Position numbers and translations under genes: made by a program. The notes under the pieces were generated by a model. The model was not told the origin of the DNA. It saw only the letters and a program-made list of their open reading frames with translations, and made no database searches. A DNA stretch of 26,444 bases from a virus. Shown here one piece after another: positions 9,534 through 21,295 of this stretch. The stretch covers positions 1 to 26,444 of IMG/VR virus record IMGVR_UViG_3300021142_000159, one strand, 5' to 3'. Every line of letters starts with the position of its first letter. Position 1 is the first letter of the stretch.

Positions 9534-9959
9534 TTATTCAGAATCGGTTTCTGAATCTTCATCGTCCTCATCATCAAGGTCGTCAAAGTCTTCGTCATCA
9601 AACTCATCTTCGTCAAAGTCATCATCTGAATCGTCATCTGAGTCATCATCTGAATCGGTTGAAGCATCTGCAGGAGCAGCAGCATCAGCTGGTGCATCTG
9701 TTGCAGCAGGAGCGGTTGCATCTGCAGCAGGAGCAGCAGTTGCGTCAGCAGGTGCAGCATCAGCTGCTGGAGCTGAAGCATCTGCTGGAGCAGCTACAGG
9801 AGCATCAGTGGTGACTGGTGCAGCGGCAGCTGAAGCATCGGTGGTTGTTGCATCTGCAGCTGGTGCAGCTACAGTTGCGTCTGCTGGAGCAGCAGTAACA
9901 TCAGGTGTCACTGCAGCTGTATCGGTTGTAGCAGGAGCTACAGGTGTTACATCTGACAT
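9534..9959 (-). CDS. Ala-rich protein with poly-acidic C-terminus, 141 aa
   Basis: Starting at ATG 9959 this gives MSDVTPVAPATTDTAAVTPD, then about 75 residues of Ala/Pro/Thr/Asp repeats (variants of APADATAAPAADA), then about 40 residues made almost only of Asp, Glu, Ser and Phe (DSDDDSDDDSDDDFDEDEFD). It is low complexity and presumably disordered and strongly acidic. A 12-base unit repeats three times near 9629-9660. AGAAAGG at 9966-9972 precedes the ATG and closely resembles the sequence before the 57-aa gene, which argues for independent initiation although the frame is also open from the HNH gene upstream. It may be a scaffold-like or charge-buffering protein beside the basic cluster; function unknown. 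Confidence 0.65.
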   Translation of the reverse strand: MSDVTPVAPATTDTAAVTPDVTAAPADATVAAPAADATTTDASAAAAPVTTDAPVAAPADASAPAADAAPADATAAPAADATAPAATDAPADAAAPADASTDSDDDSDDDSDDDFDEDEFDDEDFDDLDDEDDEDSETDSE

Positions 9960-10550
9960 GTTGTGCCTTTCTAAGGGGGTTGAGTTTTTGGTCAAGTTGC
10001 ATCGTGCGTGGGTCGGACGCACATTGCTAATTATATCAGGACCACCGCTAACTATAGGGATGACGTGGTCTATGTGCAGGCCTAATTCCCAACCGTCTCC
10101 ACGACCCTGAGTACGAGGTGCTGTTAAATCTATCTGAACATTACAGAGATAACAGAAATTCCCATACAGTTCTAAGACTTGTGCTTCTGTGTAATACTCA
10201 AAGCCGTTTTCTCGCTTCTTGGCTCTACGCCTACGAGCAGCAGCATTCATTTTGTCGTTGTTTGCTTTGTTCCATTTAAGGGTAGCTGAACGCACCTTTT
10301 CACGGTTATTGTCCCTGTATTTTTGGTCGTACTTTGTGCGTTGACCTGGATGACTTTTGTTATACCGAATATCGGCAGCACGTTTCTTTTCAGGATGCTC
10401 TTTGTAGTACTTACTTCGGTACTCGTTGCGAGCATCTCTACAGGGCTGGCAAACTGTTGTTTTCGTTTTAGTGTGTTTTGCGTAACCGCCAAGGGTTCCG
10501 CACTCTGCAGTTTTTCTACGCTTAGTAGGTGTACTGCTGGAACTGGACAT
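9534..10550 (-). CDS. HNH endonuclease reading in frame into the Ala-rich acidic protein
   Basis: From ATG 10550 the frame codes 338 aa. Residues about 13-40 hold ECGTLGGYAKH and VCQPCRDARNEYRSKYYKEH, an actinobacterial-type zinc module. A very basic helical region follows, then a helix ending YGNFCYLC and the HNH core LGLHIDHVIPIVSGGPDIIS, NVRPTHARCNLTK (about residues 150-190). Thus CxxC, the catalytic-type DH, Asn and a final Cys-Asn are all present. It is probably a mobile homing-type nicking enzyme. There is no stop after the HNH core: the frame continues through NSTPLERHN into the Ala-rich gene, so the product may be a fusion. ATG 10550 is chosen over 10664 because the latter overlaps the upstream gene by over 140 bases. 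Confidence 0.75.
   Translation of the reverse strand: MSSSSSTPTKRRKTAECGTLGGYAKHTKTKTTVCQPCRDARNEYRSKYYKEHPEKKRAADIRYNKSHPGQRTKYDQKYRDNNREKVRSATLKWNKANNDKMNAAARRRRAKKRENGFEYYTEAQVLELYGNFCYLCNVQIDLTAPRTQGRGDGWELGLHIDHVIPIVSGGPDIISNVRPTHARCNLTKNSTPLERHNMSDVTPVAPATTDTAAVTPDVTAAPADATVAAPAADATTTDASAAAAPVTTDAPVAAPADASAPAADAAPADATAAPAADATAPAATDAPADAAAPADASTDSDDDSDDDSDDDFDEDEFDDEDFDDLDDEDDEDSETDSE
9966..9972 (-). promoter_or_regulatory. Internal ribosome binding site inside the HNH frame
   Basis: The minus strand reads AGAAAGG, then six bases to ATG 9959. The 57-aa gene start at 9521 has nearly the same AGAAAGGC upstream. In the HNH frame these bases are read as codons for Leu-Glu-Arg. This supports a separate start for the Ala-rich acidic protein. 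Confidence 0.6.
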
Positions 10551-11055
10551 CGTTGACCATTTCTTCTGGATTGGTTTGGTTGCAATCCAAGGTAATGACG
10601 CTGTAGTAATTCTTGTAACGTCCTCGTGGCAAGACACGGGTAGGAACAAATACTTCATCCGCAAATACTATGCGGTCTCTGATGTGAGAGCTTGGGTCAG
10701 TCAACATGGCGGGCAAGAGTCTTTCCACATCTGCAACAGCAAGAACAATTCTTAAGGTATCGCTTACGTAGAAACCTCGCTCATTGAGGATATTAGTTGA
10801 GCGCATAAGTTGCCCCATGATTACCGGCATACTAAATGGGTCTTTCCACTTACGGCCCTGACCATTTGTTTGGTTAGAGACGTCGTAGATGTCGTCCACA
10901 ACCACAGATGGATTAGCAGCAAAGTAATCTTTGTCCCAAATATACCATTCAACTGCCGTACCTACAGGCGTGCCCAATTCATCAACTACACCCTCTTCCA
11001 TTGACATCTTTTCAAAGTCAACCTTAAAGCGTCCTTCTACACGTGTTCCACGCAT
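10522..11055 (-). CDS. Putative neck or head-tail structural protein, 177 aa
   Basis: Starts MRGTRVEGRFKVDFEKMSME after TAAGGAG. It is acidic and mixed alpha/beta, with KWKDPFSMPVIMGQLMRSTN in the middle and RVLPRGRYKNYYSVITLDCN near the end. There is no signal peptide, membrane segment or catalytic motif. Its place between the adhesin array and the neck/tail genes, and an appearance typical of virion structural proteins, suggest a role in neck or tail completion, but no family is recognised with certainty. The last 29 bases overlap the HNH gene, consistent with that gene being an insertion. Confidence 0.4.
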   Translation of the reverse strand: MRGTRVEGRFKVDFEKMSMEEGVVDELGTPVGTAVEWYIWDKDYFAANPSVVVDDIYDVSNQTNGQGRKWKDPFSMPVIMGQLMRSTNILNERGFYVSDTLRIVLAVADVERLLPAMLTDPSSHIRDRIVFADEVFVPTRVLPRGRYKNYYSVITLDCNQTNPEEMVNDVQFQQYTY

Positions 11056-11064
11056 GGCGTCTCC

Positions 11065-12432
11065 TTACTGAATAACTGGATAGCGAATTATAATAAGGCC
11101 AGAGCCACCGTTACCTGCAGAACCGGCTTGTTCGTTACCACCGCCACCGCCTCCGGTGTTGGCAGTTCCGCTAGTTTCTGTTTGCAAGTTTTCTGAGGCA
11201 CCACCGTTGTTTCCAGCGCCGCCGTTACCTCCGCCGCCGTATCCGCCAAGACCGTGGTAATCAAATGTGCCGTCTGAACCGCCGTTACCCAAGTTAGTGC
11301 CACCACCTCCACCACCTGCGTAGTAGAAAGTGCTACCAACTAGTTGTCCTGTGCCTGTTGCGGCACCCCATGCGGAGTAAACAGAGGTTCCTACACCGCC
11401 GTTACCTCCATGGTTATTGTTTGCGCTTTCACCTACACCACCGGCGCCACCGCCACCGCCACCGTTACGGACAGCAGAAGCACCAGAACCACCGATGTTT
11501 CCTTGTCCTGAGATTGCGGTTCCTGGGGAGTTTGTTGAGTAACCCATTGCTCCACCACCAGAACCGCCATTACCGGAAAGGCCTGAATTGTAGTTTGTAC
11601 TTCCACCAAATCCGCCGCCAACTGCAGCAGTTAGCGCCGCAACTTGAGAGTTAACTCCGTTGTTTGCGGGGGAAGCTCCTCCTGCGCCTACAGTGCATAC
11701 ATACACAGTTCCAGCTGCAAAGGTGTTACCGGGAAGATACACAACTCCGCCAGCACCGCCGCCACCAGAGAACCGAACACCTGTAGCTCCACCACCAGCT
11801 ACCGCTAATACTTCGGCGTTTTTAATTTGCTCAGTAGGGACAAACGCTCCTGTGGATAAAAACGTGTGATAAATGTACTTGCCGTCTGAAGACACAGTTC
11901 CACCAGATGCTTTAGCTCCTGAACCAATTCCATAAAGAGTAAAAGTAGAACCCGCAATCAACGTTCCTGAAGCTGGGGTAAACGTAATGATAGTTACTCC
12001 TACTTGAGTTCCAATGCTCCAAAGACCAACGGTAGCTAAGTCAATATTTGCAGTGGCGTTTGTTTCCCATGCAGCAGTTCCTAATACGGCTTTAGCATTT
12101 GATGTAGAGGTATAGTTGTAAACATAAAAATCACAGTTAGAAAAAGTGCTGGATGTGTCACTAGCATTGTTGCTATACCCAATCCACAAATTTGATTGAC
12201 CTGTAGCAGTTGTGGGTGATACTCCGCTTCCTGTTGCGTAAATAGCACGGTAAGAATACCCCGTAGAGCTTCCACTAAAAGTTACACTCATACTTCTATC
12301 TCCAGTGCCAGAGACACGGGAAGAAAAAACAACTTTTAAATCAGTGTAGTTTTGAGGAATATTAGTAAAGGTTACTGAGGACTCTCCACCAGCAGCTGTG
12401 ATTGTTTGAATAGCAGAATATGTTTTAGCCAT
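11065..12432 (-). CDS. Gly-rich tail adhesin, array member 6
   Basis: A 455-aa protein in two parts. Residues 1-170 are a beta-rich domain (VTFTNIPQNYTDLKVVFSSR ... STFTLYGIG). Residues about 185-455 begin YIYHTFLSTGAFVPTEQIKN and AEVLAVAGGG, continue as a Gly-rich region with many GGGG, GGAGG and GNGGSG runs, and end GGSGLIIIRYPVIQ. The Gly-rich part has the look of Gly_rich_2-type domains and of the polyglycine-helix sandwich in phage gp38-type adhesins, where surface loops bind receptors. It starts by TAATG overlap with member 5. A virion adhesin is likely; the receptor is unknown. Confidence 0.75.
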   Translation of the reverse strand: MAKTYSAIQTITAAGGESSVTFTNIPQNYTDLKVVFSSRVSGTGDRSMSVTFSGSSTGYSYRAIYATGSGVSPTTATGQSNLWIGYSNNASDTSSTFSNCDFYVYNYTSTSNAKAVLGTAAWETNATANIDLATVGLWSIGTQVGVTIITFTPASGTLIAGSTFTLYGIGSGAKASGGTVSSDGKYIYHTFLSTGAFVPTEQIKNAEVLAVAGGGATGVRFSGGGGAGGVVYLPGNTFAAGTVYVCTVGAGGASPANNGVNSQVAALTAAVGGGFGGSTNYNSGLSGNGGSGGGAMGYSTNSPGTAISGQGNIGGSGASAVRNGGGGGGAGGVGESANNNHGGNGGVGTSVYSAWGAATGTGQLVGSTFYYAGGGGGGTNLGNGGSDGTFDYHGLGGYGGGGNGGAGNNGGASENLQTETSGTANTGGGGGGNEQAGSAGNGGSGLIIIRYPVIQ

Positions 12433-13823
12433 TAGCTTAGGTACCTCACTACTATAAGTCCAGAACCACCTTGTCGTCCATCACCAGCAGCGCCTCCACC
12501 AGTGTTTGCAAGACCAGGGAAACCTTGGCCACTTCCTGGAGCGCCATAAGAGCCTCCACCGCCTTTGCCACCAGCGCCACCAGAAGTACGGCCTGCACCG
12601 CCGCCGCCTCCAGCAAAATACCAGTTACCTGAGTAGTACTCACCTAAGTTAAGTGTACTTCCAATAGAGTTAATTATTGATAGAGTTGCTCCGCTAAGTC
12701 CTACGCCACCTGCGCCGCCATTTGATGCTGTAGGGGCAACACCTGCACCGCCAGCTCCACCGCCACCGCCAGACGCTTCGTTAGGGTTTCCAGCACCATA
12801 TCCAGCGCTACCAGAATTTCCGTAACCAGTTCCGCCAGTTCCTGTTTGAGTAGATGAACCTCCTGCTTGTGTTCCTAGGTAGTTTCCACCACCGCCTGAA
12901 CCACCTGAACCACCAGAACCTCCGCCAGAGCCGTTATTTAAACCACCACCAGCGCCGCCACCTACCGCAGGAGTTAAGGCCCCAAACTGAGAGTTGTTTC
13001 CAGCATTACCTCTTACTGCTTCATATGCGTAAGACGCACCACCAGAGCCAACTGTACACAGGTAGTTAGTGCCTGCAGTTAAAGCTTGAGAAGAGGCGTA
13101 GAAGATACCTCCTGCTCCACCGCCAGCGCCCCAGTCATAACCCGAAGAGCCTCCACCAGCAACTACAAATACATCCGCATTAATTGCAGCGGCTGGTATA
13201 AATGCCCCAGTATTCTTAAATGCATGGTAAGTGTAAGTGCCATCAGTAGCAATAACATCTCCACCAATAGCTTTTGTAGGAATAATAGAGGCTATATCTG
13301 CGGCTTTAATTCCATAAAGAGTAAATGAAGTCCCTACAGCATAGTTAACGGCATTCCAACAAGAAATAGTGATGGAGGTGATTGGGTTATAGGAACGCCA
13401 AAGACCCGTAATAAAACCATACTCTCCGCTGTTAGAGTTAGTCGTATTGCTTCCGTACTTCCAGAGCATAGTCTTGTACATATTTGTATTAGCGTAACTT
13501 GGTATGTGGATTTCGTAAGGGCTGTAAACACCAGACGTAATTGATTCACCATAAACAAAGTTATTATAAATTGATGATGTACTTGTGTTTCTTCCGCTTG
13601 CTGCGGTAGAGGCATAGCTCAAAATATCTGTGTAGCTGTAATTTGTTCCGGTATCGCCGTTGAATTGAATCTTAGAACCACTCGCACCGCTTACCTGCAC
13701 ATTTGCAATAATAACTAAATCGGTATAACCCTGTGGGATGTTAGAAAAAGTTACGGTATTTGTTGCACTTCCCAGTGACTGAGTTGCAATAAAGTTATAA
13801 GTAGATGCGCCAATACTAGACAT
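12432..13823 (-). CDS. Gly-rich tail adhesin, array member 5
   Basis: 463 aa with the same two-domain plan as its neighbours: N-terminal VTFSNIPQGYTDLVIIANVQ ... TSFTLYGIKAAD, then YTYHAFKNTGAFIPAAAINA, DVFVVAGGGSS, a long Gly-rich segment and the closing GGSGLIVVRYLS. The N-terminal domain is as close to the short proteins as to the long ones. The loop segments between glycine runs, such as GYGAGNPNEASGGGGG, differ from those of the other members, as expected for receptor-facing variation. Both ends join neighbours by TAATG. Confidence 0.75.
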   Translation of the reverse strand: MSSIGASTYNFIATQSLGSATNTVTFSNIPQGYTDLVIIANVQVSGASGSKIQFNGDTGTNYSYTDILSYASTAASGRNTSTSSIYNNFVYGESITSGVYSPYEIHIPSYANTNMYKTMLWKYGSNTTNSNSGEYGFITGLWRSYNPITSITISCWNAVNYAVGTSFTLYGIKAADIASIIPTKAIGGDVIATDGTYTYHAFKNTGAFIPAAAINADVFVVAGGGSSGYDWGAGGGAGGIFYASSQALTAGTNYLCTVGSGGASYAYEAVRGNAGNNSQFGALTPAVGGGAGGGLNNGSGGGSGGSGGSGGGGNYLGTQAGGSSTQTGTGGTGYGNSGSAGYGAGNPNEASGGGGGAGGAGVAPTASNGGAGGVGLSGATLSIINSIGSTLNLGEYYSGNWYFAGGGGGAGRTSGGAGGKGGGGSYGAPGSGQGFPGLANTGGGAAGDGRQGGSGLIVVRYLS

Positions 13824-14443
13824 TAACTTGCCGCCTTTATTCCGTACAAAGCAGCTTGACTAAACTGTGCCCAGTTTCCATCTTGTGGAGTTAAAGTAAT
13901 AGAGCTAATTGGGTCAGAGATGTTTGAACCTGTACCTGCTTTATACCAGCCAACAGATGTAAATGTTACTACTCCTGGACTTTGGTTCTGGTCAAACCCA
14001 CTTAATGAACGTGCAACTTTATTTTTTGAAGCATTTGCATAGTCCAAAAAGTCAATAATTCCTCCACCAAAAACATTGGCAGTGGTATTTGCATCTGGAA
14101 CTTGCATAGCGTAAGCAGGGGTGTTACCCACATACACGCCATTTGCTGCCCCAGTACCGTAGAACCCATGTGAGTAGTAGTCAGTTACAGTAGTATCTCC
14201 ATTGAAATAAATAAAAACGTTACTGTTTGAGTTATACGCTCCAGTACAACGCCCTACTACACGTAACTGTAAATGAGTAAAGTTCTGTGGGATGTTGCTA
14301 AATGTAACGGTAGCTTGACCACCGCTAGGAACTACAACAGTAGCAATAGACTGAAAATCGTTCTGTACTGTGGTTTGGTCCCAAAGCTTGGCGCCTTTGG
14401 CGCCTGTGTATAGGCCAGAACCACTTACGTGTTTAATAGACAC
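13823..14443 (-). CDS. Short adhesin-domain protein, array member 4
   Basis: A 206-aa protein made of the beta-rich N-terminal domain alone, with no Gly-rich part. It contains VTFSNIPQNFTHLQLRVVGR, SHGFYGTGAANGVY, DFLDYANASKNKVARSLSGF and ends SQAALYGIKAAS. It is the counterpart of the 192-aa protein at 18041-18619 (both have WD near residue 20, FYGTG/LYGTG and DxLDY...SKNK/NKGK..RSL). The start is GTG 14443 with AAAGGGGAG at good spacing. It may form a collar or base for the long adhesins that follow. Confidence 0.65.
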   Translation of the reverse strand: MSIKHVSGSGLYTGAKGAKLWDQTTVQNDFQSIATVVVPSGGQATVTFSNIPQNFTHLQLRVVGRCTGAYNSNSNVFIYFNGDTTVTDYYSHGFYGTGAANGVYVGNTPAYAMQVPDANTTANVFGGGIIDFLDYANASKNKVARSLSGFDQNQSPGVVTFTSVGWYKAGTGSNISDPISSITLTPQDGNWAQFSQAALYGIKAAS

Positions 14444-14464
14444 AACGACTCCCCTTTGGGAAAA

Positions 14465-14701
14465 TTAGAGAACTAGTACTGCTGCTTCATCTGCTGTCAA
14501 CGGTGTGCCAGCAATCAACTTAGCTTTTGCAGATTCTTTGAGACCAGCAATACGCTCTGCTTCTGCAATGCGTGCTGCTTGTGCATCAGCAGCTGCAGCT
14601 GCAGCTTGGTCAGCAGCAGCAATCTCAGCGGATGTTAGCGGAACAATCATCTGCTCGCCGGTTGAGCAATCAACGATAATCTTTGTTGGTGTATCAGACA
14701 T
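14465..14701 (-). CDS. Small tail-fibre-associated protein, 78 aa
   Basis: Starts MSDTPTKIIVDCSTGEQMIV, followed by an Ala-rich helix (ADQAAAAAADAQAARIAEAE) and KAKLIAGTPLTADEAAVLVL. The KIIVDC.TGE....PLT..E.A.....A pattern occurs in small proteins next to tail-fibre genes in aquatic phages, possibly fibre-assembly helpers; function unproven. It overlaps the 128-aa gene by 8 bases. The Ala-rich stretch is predicted to be a coiled helix. Confidence 0.6.
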   Translation of the reverse strand: MSDTPTKIIVDCSTGEQMIVPLTSAEIAAADQAAAAAADAQAARIAEAERIAGLKESAKAKLIAGTPLTADEAAVLVL

Positions 14702-15080
14702 TTGTTACTACTTCCTTCCATGAAGTTGTTGGTTCGTCCCATTGATACAGCTTGCCGTCCTGGGGCATCGCTGTTGGTGCCTGCCATGTGCACGTGGTCT
14801 CGTCTAGAGTCCAAGATGCAAATGGCTTTGGCGCAATAAAAGCGCCCTCTGTGCCTTTGGTTGCATCAAAACTATAACCTATTCCGGCATAATTAAATTT
14901 ACGAGGAGTACCACCTAAGCGGTGTTCTCCAGCAATTGTGTTATAGGAAGTGGTTACCCAAGTTCCTCCAAGACCTAAATCGTTTGCTAGGTATTCTTGT
15001 GCACGGTCTTCTTGGTTATCTGGGATAACGAGTACACGAGTAACGATGTTGTTCTCGTCTAATTCTGCAGCGTGTGCCAT
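14694..15080 (-). CDS. Conserved tail-region protein of aquatic phages, 128 aa
   Basis: Starts MAHAAELDENNIVTRVLVIP and contains TWVTTSYNTIAGEHRLGGTP, RKFNYAGIGYSFDATKG and FIAPKPFASWTLDETTCTWQ, then APTAMP and a WDEPTTSWKEV end. This MAH.A.LDENNIV..V.V.......W..TSYNT....H..GGTP...N.AGIGY..D.....F..PKP..SW.L...T..W.AP signature is one I recognise from small proteins beside fibre genes of cyanomyoviruses and pelagic phages. Role unknown, probably virion or fibre associated. The ATG follows the small HNH frame by one base. Confidence 0.75.
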   Translation of the reverse strand: MAHAAELDENNIVTRVLVIPDNQEDRAQEYLANDLGLGGTWVTTSYNTIAGEHRLGGTPRKFNYAGIGYSFDATKGTEGAFIAPKPFASWTLDETTCTWQAPTAMPQDGKLYQWDEPTTSWKEVVTNV

Positions 15081-15081
15081 C

Positions 15082-15303
15082 TTACTTAACTCCTAACAAG
15101 TTCTTGCTCTTTAACCATTCGGTCATTGTCTTTGTTCCTTTGGAACTATTACAGGGCTTACACAGCGACTGTAGGTTCCCTACACTATGCCTACCACCCC
15201 TAGCAAGAGGGATGATGTGGTCAAGTGATAGTTTATCTAGTGACCCGCACATAGCGCATGGTGAAAGGCTTTTCTTCTTTACAGACAGAGCAGACTTGCA
15301 TGA
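15082..15303 (-). CDS. Small HNH endonuclease-like frame, start missing or frameshifted
   Basis: After the stop of the upstream adhesin the same frame stays open for 74 codons and encodes PCAMCGSLDKLSLDHIIPLA, RGGRHSVGNLQSLCKPCNSS, KGTKTMTEWLKSKNLLGVK. This is a complete minimal HNH core: CxxC, LDHIIP, GG, NLQ.LC..CN..KG. The only in-frame ATG, at 15252, would lose the first Cys; CTG 15288 is a weak alternative. In the neighbouring frame ATG 15301 opens MQVCSVCKEEKPF and stops after 22 codons. Removing one A from the GAAAAG run would join this start to the HNH core. It is either a decayed homing endonuclease, a gene with a non-standard start, or a sequencing indel. The stop is one base before the next ATG. 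Confidence 0.55.
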   Translation of the reverse strand, partial: SCKSALSVKKKSLSPCAMCGSLDKLSLDHIIPLARGGRHSVGNLQSLCKPCNSSKGTKTMTEWLKSKNLLGVK

Positions 15304-16722
15304 TTACATTTTATAACGAACAATGATAAGTCCAGAACCGCCAGCAACTCCTGCGTAACGACTGCCTGACTGAAATCCTCCAGCACCACCGCCACTTCCA
15401 GTATTAACTGCTCCTACTGTTGGACCTGAGCTATTAATGCCTCCGTTACCGCCACCCCCCAAACCACCCGTACCTGGGGTTCCGTGGGAGGACTCTCCAC
15501 CAGCCCAACCACCTCCACCACCAGCGATGTAGTAAGTGCCGTTTACGTTGACTCCAGTGTTAGTTGCGTATAAAAGTGTAGAAAATGCAGATGTTCCGTC
15601 ACCGCCATTACCCGCATTTGAACCGCTTGCATTTCCTCCAGCTGTGCCAGCTCCGCCACCACCACCGCCGTTATACCGTCTTCCAGAGCCCGAACCGCTT
15701 CCAGTTCCACTGCCACCAGCGTTTCCGTAGTAGGCCGCAGCCCCAGTACCAGTTTGGGTAGAGGAGCCTCCAGCGTTTGTTGTCGTGGAGCCTCCAGTAC
15801 CTGCTCCTCCTCCGCTACCGCCAGATTGACCTACGTTATTATCGTTACCAGTTCCCCCACCACCACCAACTGCAGCAGTTAATGAGCCAAAATAAGAGTT
15901 AACACCATTAGTAGCGACTGCCCCGCCAGAACCAACAGTGCATGCGTAAGAAGTGCCGTTTGTAAGAGGCTGTGAAGTAAAGTAAATAACGCCGCCTGCA
16001 CCACCACCGCCATCAGAAGCGTCGCTTCCAGCTCCACCCCCACCCCCCGCTACTACCAAAACATCTGCCAATAATCTTGTACTTGGTTGAAATGCGCCTG
16101 TGGAGTTAAATGTGTGGTAAACATAAGTACCATCTGTAGTAATAGTTCCGCCAGATGCTCGTACAGAATTTCCTAATATGTTTGCCATATTTTTAACGCC
16201 GTATAGAGTGAACGATGAATATTGAGCAATGTTTCCATTATTTAGTACAAAGGAAAGAGAAGTAACTGCTGCACTGTTTTGCCAAAAAATTGCGCCTTGC
16301 TCTACATACGCTGATGCGGAATTACTTTCAGAGCAGAACTCAAGCGTTGAAGACTTGTAGTTAGACGACGAATACCCAGGCATATACCATTCAAAGGATG
16401 TGTACATACCTGCTGTTTGGCTGCCGCCATCAAAGTAACACTCACTCAACCGTGCGTAAGGTGTTGTACTTACGGTAAACGTTGTGGATTGAGAAGATGA
16501 AGCATTTGTAGAATCCTGTGTGTATACCGCTGAGTGGCTATATCCAGAGTAAGAGCCATTAATTAACCCACCTAAAACAGTGTTTCCTGTTCCAGCACTA
16601 CGCACAGAGCCAACAATCTTTAGGTCAGAATAACCTTGAGGAATGTTATTGAAAGTAACCATTGTGTCTCCACCAGAGGCTGAAACAGTGTAAGAACCAA
16701 GCTTAGTTAGTGTCTCGTTCAT
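15304..16722 (-). CDS. Gly-rich tail adhesin, array member 3
   Basis: 472 aa. The N-terminal domain has MVTFNNIPQGYSDLKIVGSV and ends FTLYGVKNMAN at about residue 180. It is followed by YVYHTFNSTGAFQPSTRLLA, DVLVVAGGGGGAG and a long Gly-rich region with Ser/Thr/Asn loops, closing with GGSGLIIVRYKM. Same plan as members 2, 5 and 6. It starts by TAATG overlap with member 2. The coding frame remains open past its stop into the small HNH sequence, so loss or suppression of one stop codon would extend it. Confidence 0.75.
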   Translation of the reverse strand: MNETLTKLGSYTVSASGGDTMVTFNNIPQGYSDLKIVGSVRSAGTGNTVLGGLINGSYSGYSHSAVYTQDSTNASSSQSTTFTVSTTPYARLSECYFDGGSQTAGMYTSFEWYMPGYSSSNYKSSTLEFCSESNSASAYVEQGAIFWQNSAAVTSLSFVLNNGNIAQYSSFTLYGVKNMANILGNSVRASGGTITTDGTYVYHTFNSTGAFQPSTRLLADVLVVAGGGGGAGSDASDGGGGAGGVIYFTSQPLTNGTSYACTVGSGGAVATNGVNSYFGSLTAAVGGGGGTGNDNNVGQSGGSGGGAGTGGSTTTNAGGSSTQTGTGAAAYYGNAGGSGTGSGSGSGRRYNGGGGGGAGTAGGNASGSNAGNGGDGTSAFSTLLYATNTGVNVNGTYYIAGGGGGWAGGESSHGTPGTGGLGGGGNGGINSSGPTVGAVNTGSGGGAGGFQSGSRYAGVAGGSGLIIVRYKM

Positions 16723-18041
16723 TAGCGTGCATACCTCACAATGATAATTCCTGAACCACCTTGAGAAGCTACTCCACTACCGCTTGCTCCAGCACCACCA
16801 CCAGTGTTAGTAGTTCCATTTCCGCCTCCCGTAGCAGATGTACCTGTTCCTCCTCCGCCTAATCCGCCAACACCACTACCTTGAGAGTTGCTTCCTCCGC
16901 CTGCATAGTAGACAGTTCCTCCAGAATTTTGCCCTGTATTAGTCGCTAGTCCCCATGCAGAGTACGAGTTGGTCCCTACACCGCCGTCTGAGCGACCATA
17001 AGCAACAGTTTCGTTTGTACCAGCGCCACCAGCACCGCCACCACCAGTAGTTCCTGGTTGAGCAGTAATTGCTCCGCCGTTATTTCCTTGGCCCGATGTT
17101 CCCAAACCTCCTGAAAGGTTGCTGGAGTTAGAACCAGAACCACCGCCAGAACCACCTGTTCCACCAACACTGCTACCACCTCCAGCGCCGTAACCTCCGC
17201 CAATTGCTGCGGTAAGAGATAGGGAACCACCAGTTATATTTGAGTTATTTCCTTGAGTACCGTTACCAGAAGAACCGTTTCCAGGTCCTCCGGCACCTAC
17301 AGTGCAGAGATAAGACACACCAGAAGCAAAAGAAACAGAAGGAGTACCAACAACTCCGCCAGCACCGCCTCCTGCGCCCCAGTTAGCACCGTTACCGCCA
17401 CCACCAGCAACGACAAGAACGTCTGCAGTAATTGCACGGTTAGGAGTAAATGTTCCAGTTCCCTTAAAAACGTGGTACACATAAGAAGAGTCATAGGCAA
17501 TAAATGTTCCGCCAGATGCTTGAGATACTTTAGCATTTACTGCACTGATTCCATACAAAGAAAAAGAACTTCCAGCAGCAATATTTCCAGCATTCATAAA
17601 CAACTTAATGGTGTTTATTCCAGCAGTTGTGTTGCTCCAAGTGTTAACATTTGTATCTAAATAATTTAATGGGTTTCCATTTTTACTTACTATGGTTCTT
17701 GAATAACCTGTAGTGGAGTAGTTATAGAAGTTAGTGGTATGCGCTGAGTATCCGCCCGAAGTAGATGATGCTGCAGGAATTTCACCTGTGTAAAGTTGTG
17801 ATTGGTTAGAAATTCTAGAGGAAGACGCTGTTGTTGTGTAGCCTCTCAAATAGGTTGAAGAGTAATTTGTTGAGGCGTCTCCGTTTAATTGCATACCCAA
17901 AGTTGTAGATATAGCAGCAGTGTCTCCTCGCACAGATGAGACTAGCACCAAGTCGGTGTATGTTTGGTCAATGTTACTCAGGGTTACACTGGCTTGATTG
18001 CTGCTTAAAGTTACAGACTGCAAAGGTGTCCATGTAGCCAT
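16722..18041 (-). CDS. Gly-rich tail adhesin, array member 2
   Basis: 439 aa. N-terminal VTLSNIDQTYTDLVLVSSVR ... SSFSLYGISAVN, then YVYHVFKGTGTFTPNRAITA, DVLVVAGGGGNGANWGAGGG and a Gly-rich region that ends GGSGIIIVRYAR. The junction with member 1 upstream is TAATG, as is that with member 3 downstream. The loops between Gly runs are rich in Ser, Asn and Thr and differ from the other members. It probably forms a trimeric or monomeric receptor-binding tip; the oligomeric state cannot be read from sequence. Confidence 0.75.
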   Translation of the reverse strand: MATWTPLQSVTLSSNQASVTLSNIDQTYTDLVLVSSVRGDTAAISTTLGMQLNGDASTNYSSTYLRGYTTTASSSRISNQSQLYTGEIPAASSTSGGYSAHTTNFYNYSTTGYSRTIVSKNGNPLNYLDTNVNTWSNTTAGINTIKLFMNAGNIAAGSSFSLYGISAVNAKVSQASGGTFIAYDSSYVYHVFKGTGTFTPNRAITADVLVVAGGGGNGANWGAGGGAGGVVGTPSVSFASGVSYLCTVGAGGPGNGSSGNGTQGNNSNITGGSLSLTAAIGGGYGAGGGSSVGGTGGSGGGSGSNSSNLSGGLGTSGQGNNGGAITAQPGTTGGGGAGGAGTNETVAYGRSDGGVGTNSYSAWGLATNTGQNSGGTVYYAGGGSNSQGSGVGGLGGGGTGTSATGGGNGTTNTGGGAGASGSGVASQGGSGIIIVRYAR

Positions 18042-18619
18042 TATTTAACTCCATATAGGGAAATAGTTGTTCCAGCGTTAAGGTTTCCTGCTTCGCTAAA
18101 AATAGTAATAGAACTAACAGCAGTACTTGTTACATAGTACCCACTAGAAACGTACTCAATAGTTCCACTGCCGTTGTTATCGTAGCCAAATAACGAGCGA
18201 GTAGTTTTTCCTTTGTTCGTACTTGTGTAGTCTAAGAGGTCACAAGTAAAACCTGTAAAAGCACCACTGCTAGCAGAGTAAGCAATGATTCCATCAGCAC
18301 TAGAGGTAGTTCCTGACCATCCTCCTGCCGCAGAAGAACCAGTTCCATAGAGAAAATGGCGTTGATAGTTGCCCGCAGTAGCGTCATTGTTTATGTAATA
18401 GCCAATCCAACCAGTTGTTGCGCCTCTAACTACACCACGAATCTGCAGATGAGAATATGTTGCTGGGATGTTATTAAACACAATAGACGAATTATCAGCC
18501 GTTAAAGTTAAAGAAGTAATAGCATCCATAGAAGCAGTTTGGCTAATTCCATCCCAAACGTTTTGTTGCTTGGGGAAACCAGCTTGTATACTTTGTTTAG
18601 ATAGGCGACTAACTGACAT
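18041..18619 (-). CDS. Short adhesin-domain protein, array member 1
   Basis: 192 aa: about 30 N-terminal residues including QQNVWDGISQTASMDA, then only the beta-rich domain (IVFNNIPATYSHLQIRGVVR, RHFLYGTGSSAAGG, CDLLDYTSTNKGKTTRSLFG, closing TTISLYGVK). It is the counterpart of the 206-aa protein at 13823-14443 and likewise stands at the head of two long Gly-rich adhesins. AAGGGG lies some 11 bases before the ATG. It probably shares a structural role with the N-terminal domain of the long members. Confidence 0.65.
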   Translation of the reverse strand: MSVSRLSKQSIQAGFPKQQNVWDGISQTASMDAITSLTLTADNSSIVFNNIPATYSHLQIRGVVRGATTGWIGYYINNDATAGNYQRHFLYGTGSSAAGGWSGTTSSADGIIAYSASSGAFTGFTCDLLDYTSTNKGKTTRSLFGYDNNGSGTIEYVSSGYYVTSTAVSSITIFSEAGNLNAGTTISLYGVK

Positions 18620-20623: not shown

Positions 20624-21295
20624 CTACATGCCGCCTAACAAAAAGACTGAAGGTAGTGGGTCAGAAGCTGCTGATGCCCATTGAACACCTGTACCAGTAG
20701 AGGTGAGTACCTGACCAGATGTTCCCGTAGACGAGTTAGCTGTTACTGTTCCAGCAAGTGTAAGGTTAGTTTCAGTTGCGCCTGACAATGAGGGGGATGT
20801 TGCAAGGACGACGTTTCCAGTACCAGTTACTCCAGCAAAAAATCCGCTGTAATCAGCAGACCATGAAGACGCAGTTGTTCCTGACGCCAAAATAAGGGTG
20901 TAGGTAGCTGCTGTGTTCGCAGGCTGAGCAAAAATAGTGTTGTTACCAGAAGACTGAACAGTGACAACACCGGTGCTGGTGTTGTAGACAACGAACTGCT
21001 TTCCAACACCCATTGTGCTAGCAACAGGTAAAAGAACAGTCTGTGTAGTTGAGCCAGTAAAGAACTGGTTAGGGTTACTTGTAGCTGTAAGAGTTGTTGT
21101 ACCAGCAGCAGTAGCTGTGGTGGTGTAACCAGAAGAACCGCCAGCGTACGACAGTGTTGTCCAGTTAGAAGAACCGTTACCTAGCTTAAACAGACCAGTA
21201 TCAGATTCAAAGCCAAGTTCACCAGCAGCAAGAGTAGGGTTATTGGACGTCCAGTTAGCCGCAGTGTCTCTGCGGTTCTGTATTCTAGTTGTCAT
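20624..21295 (-). CDS. Tail fibre with Mtd-like N-terminal domain
   Basis: 223 aa. The N-terminus, MTTRIQNRRDTAANWTSNNP then TLAAGELGFESDTGLFKLGN, matches the domain at the N-terminus of the Bordetella phage major tropism determinant and many fibres (Q.RR.TAA.W...NP.L..GE.G.E.DTG..K.G.G...W..L.Y), which docks the protein on the virion. The rest is a Thr/Ser/Gly beta-rich shaft, with LLPVASTMGVGKQFVVYNTS and a C-terminal GTSGQVLTSTGTGVQWASAA motif common in phage fibres. No reverse transcriptase or template repeat accompanies it, so diversity-generating retroelement control is not suggested. AGAGAGG precedes the ATG. Confidence 0.8.
   Translation of the reverse strand: MTTRIQNRRDTAANWTSNNPTLAAGELGFESDTGLFKLGNGSSNWTTLSYAGGSSGYTTTATAAGTTTLTATSNPNQFFTGSTTQTVLLPVASTMGVGKQFVVYNTSTGVVTVQSSGNNTIFAQPANTAATYTLILASGTTASSWSADYSGFFAGVTGTGNVVLATSPSLSGATETNLTLAGTVTANSSTGTSGQVLTSTGTGVQWASAASDPLPSVFLLGGM

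Follow-up and report, generated by a model that had tools for sequence, protein, structure and literature searches.

The DNA analysed here (referred to as the window) is an IMG/VR contig in its full length of 26,444 bases. Its minus strand encodes tail proteins of a contractile phage, among them the sheath, the tube, the baseplate hub, a large protein that resembles a tape measure and contains a peptidase domain, and fibre proteins of the collagen-like and Mtd_N types. Two gene triplets, S1-L1a-L1b followed by S2-L2a-L2b, are located within positions 18619-11065 on the minus strand, which also carries the other window genes described below. The first module consists of the short protein S1 (18619-18041, 192 aa), which is its class-1 chain, and two long proteins, L1a (18041-16722, 439 aa, class 2) and L1b (16722-15304, 472 aa, class 3). 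The second module consists of S2 (14443-13823, 206 aa, class 1), which begins with a GTG start codon, L2a (13823-12432, 463 aa, class 2), and L2b (12432-11065, 455 aa, class 3). The modules are separated by a small HNH endonuclease gene (15252-15082, 56 aa), a gene for a 128-aa protein assigned to phrog_7759 (15080-14694), and a gene for the 78-aa partner of the 128-aa protein (14701-14465). A 124-aa protein assigned to phrog_1276 is encoded directly upstream of module 1 (19007-18633). These coordinates agree with the original prediction of six related proteins ordered short-long-long twice. The assignment of the module as tail fibre or adhesin is upheld, and the tail-gene context and the N-terminal fibre attachment expected of a distal tail-fibre module are both present.

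The short proteins consist of a ~28-aa N-terminal peptide, the anchor (residues 1-28 in both S1 and S2), and a ~170-aa N-domain (ND). The long proteins, which match phrog_2295, consist of an ND followed by a ~280-aa glycine-rich domain, or tip, of the PF21722 (Gly_rich_2) family. In L1a the ND spans ~18041-17544 and the tip ~17543-16725, and in L1b the ND spans ~16722-16192. At the curated cut-off of PF21722 (24.3 bits), L1a (53.2 bits), L1b (40.2), and L2b (35.5) score above and L2a (20.2) scores below. The ND is common to short and long proteins (S1-S2, 30% identity, E 5e-19; S1-L1a, 27%, E 2e-11), and in alignments the short proteins cover the first ~170 residues of the long proteins, as had been proposed. 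Corresponding members also pair across the two modules, short with short, L1a with L2a (104 bits), and L1b with L2b (116 bits), however, the identities of these pairs are only 30-40% and their lead over other pairs is small. Single-chain AlphaFold2 modelling predicts S2 to be a beta sandwich with a mean pLDDT of 86, and the L1a model has a mean pLDDT of 92. A Pfam search gave no convincing family match for the ND, and Foldseek comparison of the ND fold with the PDB returned weak galectin-like matches only, none with E < 1e-3. Comparison with BFVD gave strong matches to many uncharacterised phage proteins. No solved structure related by sequence was found in the PDB search.

Relatives were collected by scanning IMG/VR twice with alignments of the long and the short proteins, which yielded loci in 91 contig groups, the window included, and an ND profile was then used to locate NDs in these groups. 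In total, ~190 independent IMG/VR contig groups and loci were sampled. The design is nearly universal across the 91 groups: a first gene with an N-terminal extension is accompanied by two more ND genes, and this set is present in 1, 2, or 3 copies. The 110 non-redundant complete triplets of the first set contain 330 NDs, of which 326 keep their position in their best match outside their own module. A tree of the 330 NDs requires 5 changes of position label, compared with ~157 when the labels are shuffled. The clear exceptions are modules with the gene order class 2-1-3 (L100, L150, and both modules of L128), in which the leading class-2 ND bears the N-terminal extension; in L128 this extension is of the usual anchor sequence type. 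When classes rather than positions are placed on a 75-row IQ-TREE tree, each class forms one side of a branch, with support of 99, 50, and 97. The families phrog_2295 and PF21722 do not separate the three classes. For a held-out test, class HMMs built from the 110 modules were applied to loci from two more viral scans and one GTDB scan. After removal of loci that shared DNA with the first set 105 remained, 99 of them with an ND, and exactly one ND per class was present in all 100 complete modules. Three of these 100 have the 2-1-3 order (L240, L260, and L199, the last with a weak class-2 margin), and all eight incomplete modules are located at contig ends. Annotated phage relatives were also sought, and the only one found, Caudovirales ct2KA10, is itself unannotated and features a 1-2-3 triplet. 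The conserved unit is the triplet, and its NDs belong to three ancient classes. The classes always co-occur and so probably belong to a single assembly instead of being six alternative tips. The original prediction of several alternative receptor-binding tips does not fit this pattern, as the members of a triplet are different ND classes with one of each per module; it missed the main point, which is that short, long, long denotes three distinct classes that always occur together.

Gene fusions do not change this count, because fused genes still give one ND per class. In the first set, a single gene encodes two NDs at four loci. Three of these genes clearly connect the third ND of a module, via a linker of ~90-100 aa, to the first ND of the module that follows (L131, 6804-8099; L136, 4714-6033; L149, 7182-8522), which suggests that heads can be coupled serially in pairs. 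The fourth (L078, 592-1899) is a third/first ND fusion disturbed by an apparent frameshift. One held-out locus, L268, features an ND1-ND2 fusion. Solitary ND genes exist outside triplets in a few loci (L034 at 14127, L120 at 15185, L041 at 4879, and L186), several of them with longer N-termini, so the function of some NDs does not depend on triplet membership, which counts against the heterotrimeric head proposed below. These solitary genes may be homo-oligomeric relatives.

All four within-module junctions of the window are TAATG, as had been claimed. TAATG is also found at three other junctions of the window (9348, 8009, and 836). Among 120 related triplets, a one-base overlap is present at 99 of 240 junctions and TAATG itself at 95; the remaining junctions are 4-base overlaps or gaps of 0-29 nt. 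TAATG is an ordinary one-base overlap that reflects ordinary translational coupling, and its proposed role as a recombination device is not upheld, since it is frequent outside the modules of the window and does not stay constant across the family. Genes for HNH-type endonucleases are located between triplet members in eight relatives (L030, L036, L044, L053, L064, L071, L118, and L138), where the gaps are 386-568 nt. These genes lie at gene boundaries with the neighbouring genes undamaged, and several feature the motif HHKNG..NDNRPENLELW. Because an HNH gene can stand between triplet genes with neither gene broken, the strict overlap is not required. The HNH gene of the window is absent from the corresponding place in L007, L027, and L086.

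The two modules of the window are distant from one another. The mean of their three ND identities is 0.32, their mutual similarity ranks 105 and 94 of 109, and tandem modules generally are no closer than all module pairs (0.392 vs 0.396). In a concatenated-ND tree, module 2 clusters with the second modules of L007, L027, L086, and L028 (SH-aLRT 99), and module 1 clusters with the first modules of L007, L027, L086, L065, L028, and others (SH-aLRT 95). Anchor peptides are of two types, which sort by module. The duplication or acquisition that produced the two modules is older than these phages, because the modules fall in two lineages shared with other phages and have two anchor types. The similarity ranks and the tree rule out a recent duplication in this phage, and the whole-module duplication that had been proposed for this lineage is not supported. 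A module duplicated in this lineage to give alternative receptor-binding tips, with uniform TAATG ends permitting gene-by-gene exchange, would account for the presence of two modules, the matching of corresponding members, and the exchange of heads between relatives. It is nevertheless a very unlikely explanation given two old lineages no closer than random, a junction that is neither universal nor specific, and triplet members that are different classes and not alternatives.

Exchange was examined in four pairings of closely related phages (L065/L013 twice, L055/L091, and L028/L024). Their flanking 400 nt share 76-100% identity, and the anchors are 93-97% identical in the three pairings where they were measurable, whereas the three NDs are 42-53% identical and the tips 57-65%. 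In L065/L013, a DNA identity of ~98% ends ~110 nt into the first gene. Related phages thus exchange the entire head, while the anchor and the flanks stay in place. The part of the original prediction that concerned the swapping of head parts is supported by these values; the part that made TAATG the enabling element is not.

The anchor and the tips are distributed unequally over the three chains. The median N-terminal extension is 26 aa in gene 1, 3 aa in gene 2, and 2 aa in gene 3. The first-gene anchor is 28 aa in the window and reaches ~300 aa in other phages, where some extensions bear fn3 domains and match minor tail proteins (L008, L048, and L141). Glycine-rich tips are present in 0 of 110 class-1 chains, 56 of 110 class-2 chains, and 73 of 110 class-3 chains; both latter chains have a tip in 56 modules, only class 3 does in 17, and no chain does in 37. 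This distribution bears on the role of the short proteins, which in the window are the only tipless chains and might on that account be a dedicated cap or assembly factor outside a head formed by the long proteins as a heterodimer. Such a role is highly improbable, as the 37 of 110 modules lacking any tip make the short protein not special by length, and its N-terminus is the anchor, with fn3 domains in some phages, which fits a structural chain.

A 1:1:1 heterotrimeric head best fits the strict one-of-each content, which is kept despite gene-order swaps and fusions, the single anchor of each set, and the coupling of translation. It is proposed, with a probability of roughly 0.6, that each triplet encodes one 1:1:1 tail-fibre head built from three different paralogous chains, and that this phage has two such heads, the oligomeric state being deduced from the conservation of the gene set. 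In the proposed head, the N-terminal anchor of the class-1 chain would dock the head to the remaining fibre or the baseplate, and the three NDs, as beta sandwiches, may pack about a pseudo-threefold axis. A glycine-rich tip of the Pam3 type may project from the class-2 and class-3 chains and would contact the host. The one- or few-base spacing of the genes would couple their translation and favour equal amounts of the three chains. The two heads could occupy two sites, be alternatives, or be stacked, the last being suggested by the ND3-ND1 fusions of some relatives; since each head has its own anchor type, two sites or stacking is proposed. Heads would be exchanged between related phages while the anchor and the flanks remain.

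Three separate homotrimers, one per gene, placed one after another or next to each other on the fibre with one of each needed, are possible but rather unlikely. Phage tail fibres are usually homotrimers, the fibre of cyanophage Pam3 with its possibly similar glycine-rich fold among them, and the stacking of three obligatory layers would also give a strict one-of-each content. Three separate homotrimers produced in equal amounts would account for much of this gene pattern as well. However, the anchor is present on the first gene only, no class-1 chain has a tip, and the ND1-ND2 and ND3-ND1 fusions would tie together the chains of different homotrimers. Additionally, the closest precedent with positional clades is heterotrimeric.

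Known systems share some of these features. The gp38 adhesins of T-even phages (S16, T2, and PP01) have a polyglycine-rich receptor-binding tip with variable distal loops, and gp38 is a single separate adhesin gene whose product sits on gp37. The tips described here are likewise glycine-rich, and the PDB search gave no gp38 sequence match. The Pam3 tail fibre gp24, which has the chaperone gp25, features a TNF-like domain and a glycine-rich distal domain (PMC9608196; PDB 7ypx). It is the product of one gene and forms a homotrimer with an alpha-helical anchor (PMC9608196), unlike the three-gene set found here, which Pam3 lacks. The L1a model, a two-domain query with a pTM of 0.68, may resemble Pam3 gp24 in its distal glycine-rich part; the Foldseek match has a probability of 1.00 and 21% identity, but an E of 2e-3 and TM of 0.26/0.42. 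This possible resemblance counts against the heterotrimer, since the Pam3 fibre is homotrimeric, yet 0, 1, or 2 of the 3 chains have a tip here. In Dishui Lake virophage 2 (DSLV2), a 2025 study reported that three consecutive tail proteins with positional clades co-purify as a heterotrimer (PMC12724248). Co-expression gave a 1:1:1 complex, and cell binding was also reported (PMC12724248). The DSLV2 proteins contain PF07484, the phage collar domain, and are similar to T4 gp37 (PMC12724248). The triplets described here are also three consecutive paralogues with position-specific clades, however, PF07484 was found in none of the six proteins of the window, even at E 1, and for this reason they are not filed as DSLV2-type members, though they may work alike. 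They differ further in belonging to tailed phages, in their glycine-rich tips, in the anchor on one chain, in the tandem modules, and in that the heterotrimer is inferred from genes. A literature search on this three-class family found nothing beyond the virophage and Pam3 papers.

Coevolution between the classes was studied by coupling analysis on 210 paired modules. The top-10 mean Z of the inter-class DCA couplings is 9.7 for the true pairing, 7.2-7.6 for nearest-neighbour re-paired modules, and 6.5-6.9 for random pairing, and a mutual information (MI) control concurs (top-50, 5.9 vs <=5.3). In 26 two-module phages, the inter-class distance correlations are 0.46-0.57 within a module and 0.21-0.43 across modules. 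These margins are small and partly phylogenetic. The couplings favour contact between the classes and support the heterotrimeric head, short of proof. Same-column couplings (2:25-3:25 and 1:25-2:25) were considered as a sign of the threefold axis; they are suggestive in DCA, partly reflect shared residues, and are not significant in the MI control.

In many freshwater phages three different but related tail-fibre genes are found together, always one of each kind, and this pattern suggests a fibre head of three different chains and not of three copies of a single chain. A broader generalization, held tentatively and at somewhat less than even odds, is that tailed phages with obligate ABC heterotrimer heads, in which one chain is anchored and two bear tips, are widespread, with up to three heads in tandem, some stacked by ND3-ND1 fusion, and with heads exchanged as cassettes while the anchor peptide stays fixed. 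If the heterotrimeric head is correct, asymmetric receptor-binding heads would be a common design in freshwater phages, and host-range prediction would have to read the head as a three-gene set and not as single genes. It would also be a case independent of the 2025 virophage, in a family set apart by its domain content through the lack of PF07484.

Genes that neighbour the modules are also conserved. Relatives of the 128-aa protein are found in 57 of the 91 contig groups, and in many two-module phages they are located between the two modules; relatives of the 78-aa protein are found in 47 and those of the 124-aa protein in 38. The 128-aa and 78-aa genes (14465-15080 in the window) co-occur between modules in many phages and are a possible fibre-assembly helper pair, and the 124-aa protein is possibly a neighbour or adaptor. 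One actinobacterial MAG contig, together with a relative of the 128-aa protein from a Pontimonas phage, hints at aquatic actinobacteria as possible hosts. The 128-aa family is also found in cyanophages and in phages of Pelagibacter and Pontimonas. Elsewhere in the window, the product of 20624-21295 has an Mtd_N domain (the N-terminus of the major tropism determinant), adjoins a 916-aa collagen-like protein, and is a further receptor-binding candidate. A single ORF at 9534-10664 consists of an endonuclease VII-like HNH protein and a long acidic Ala/Asp-rich tail, which may once have been a separate gene.
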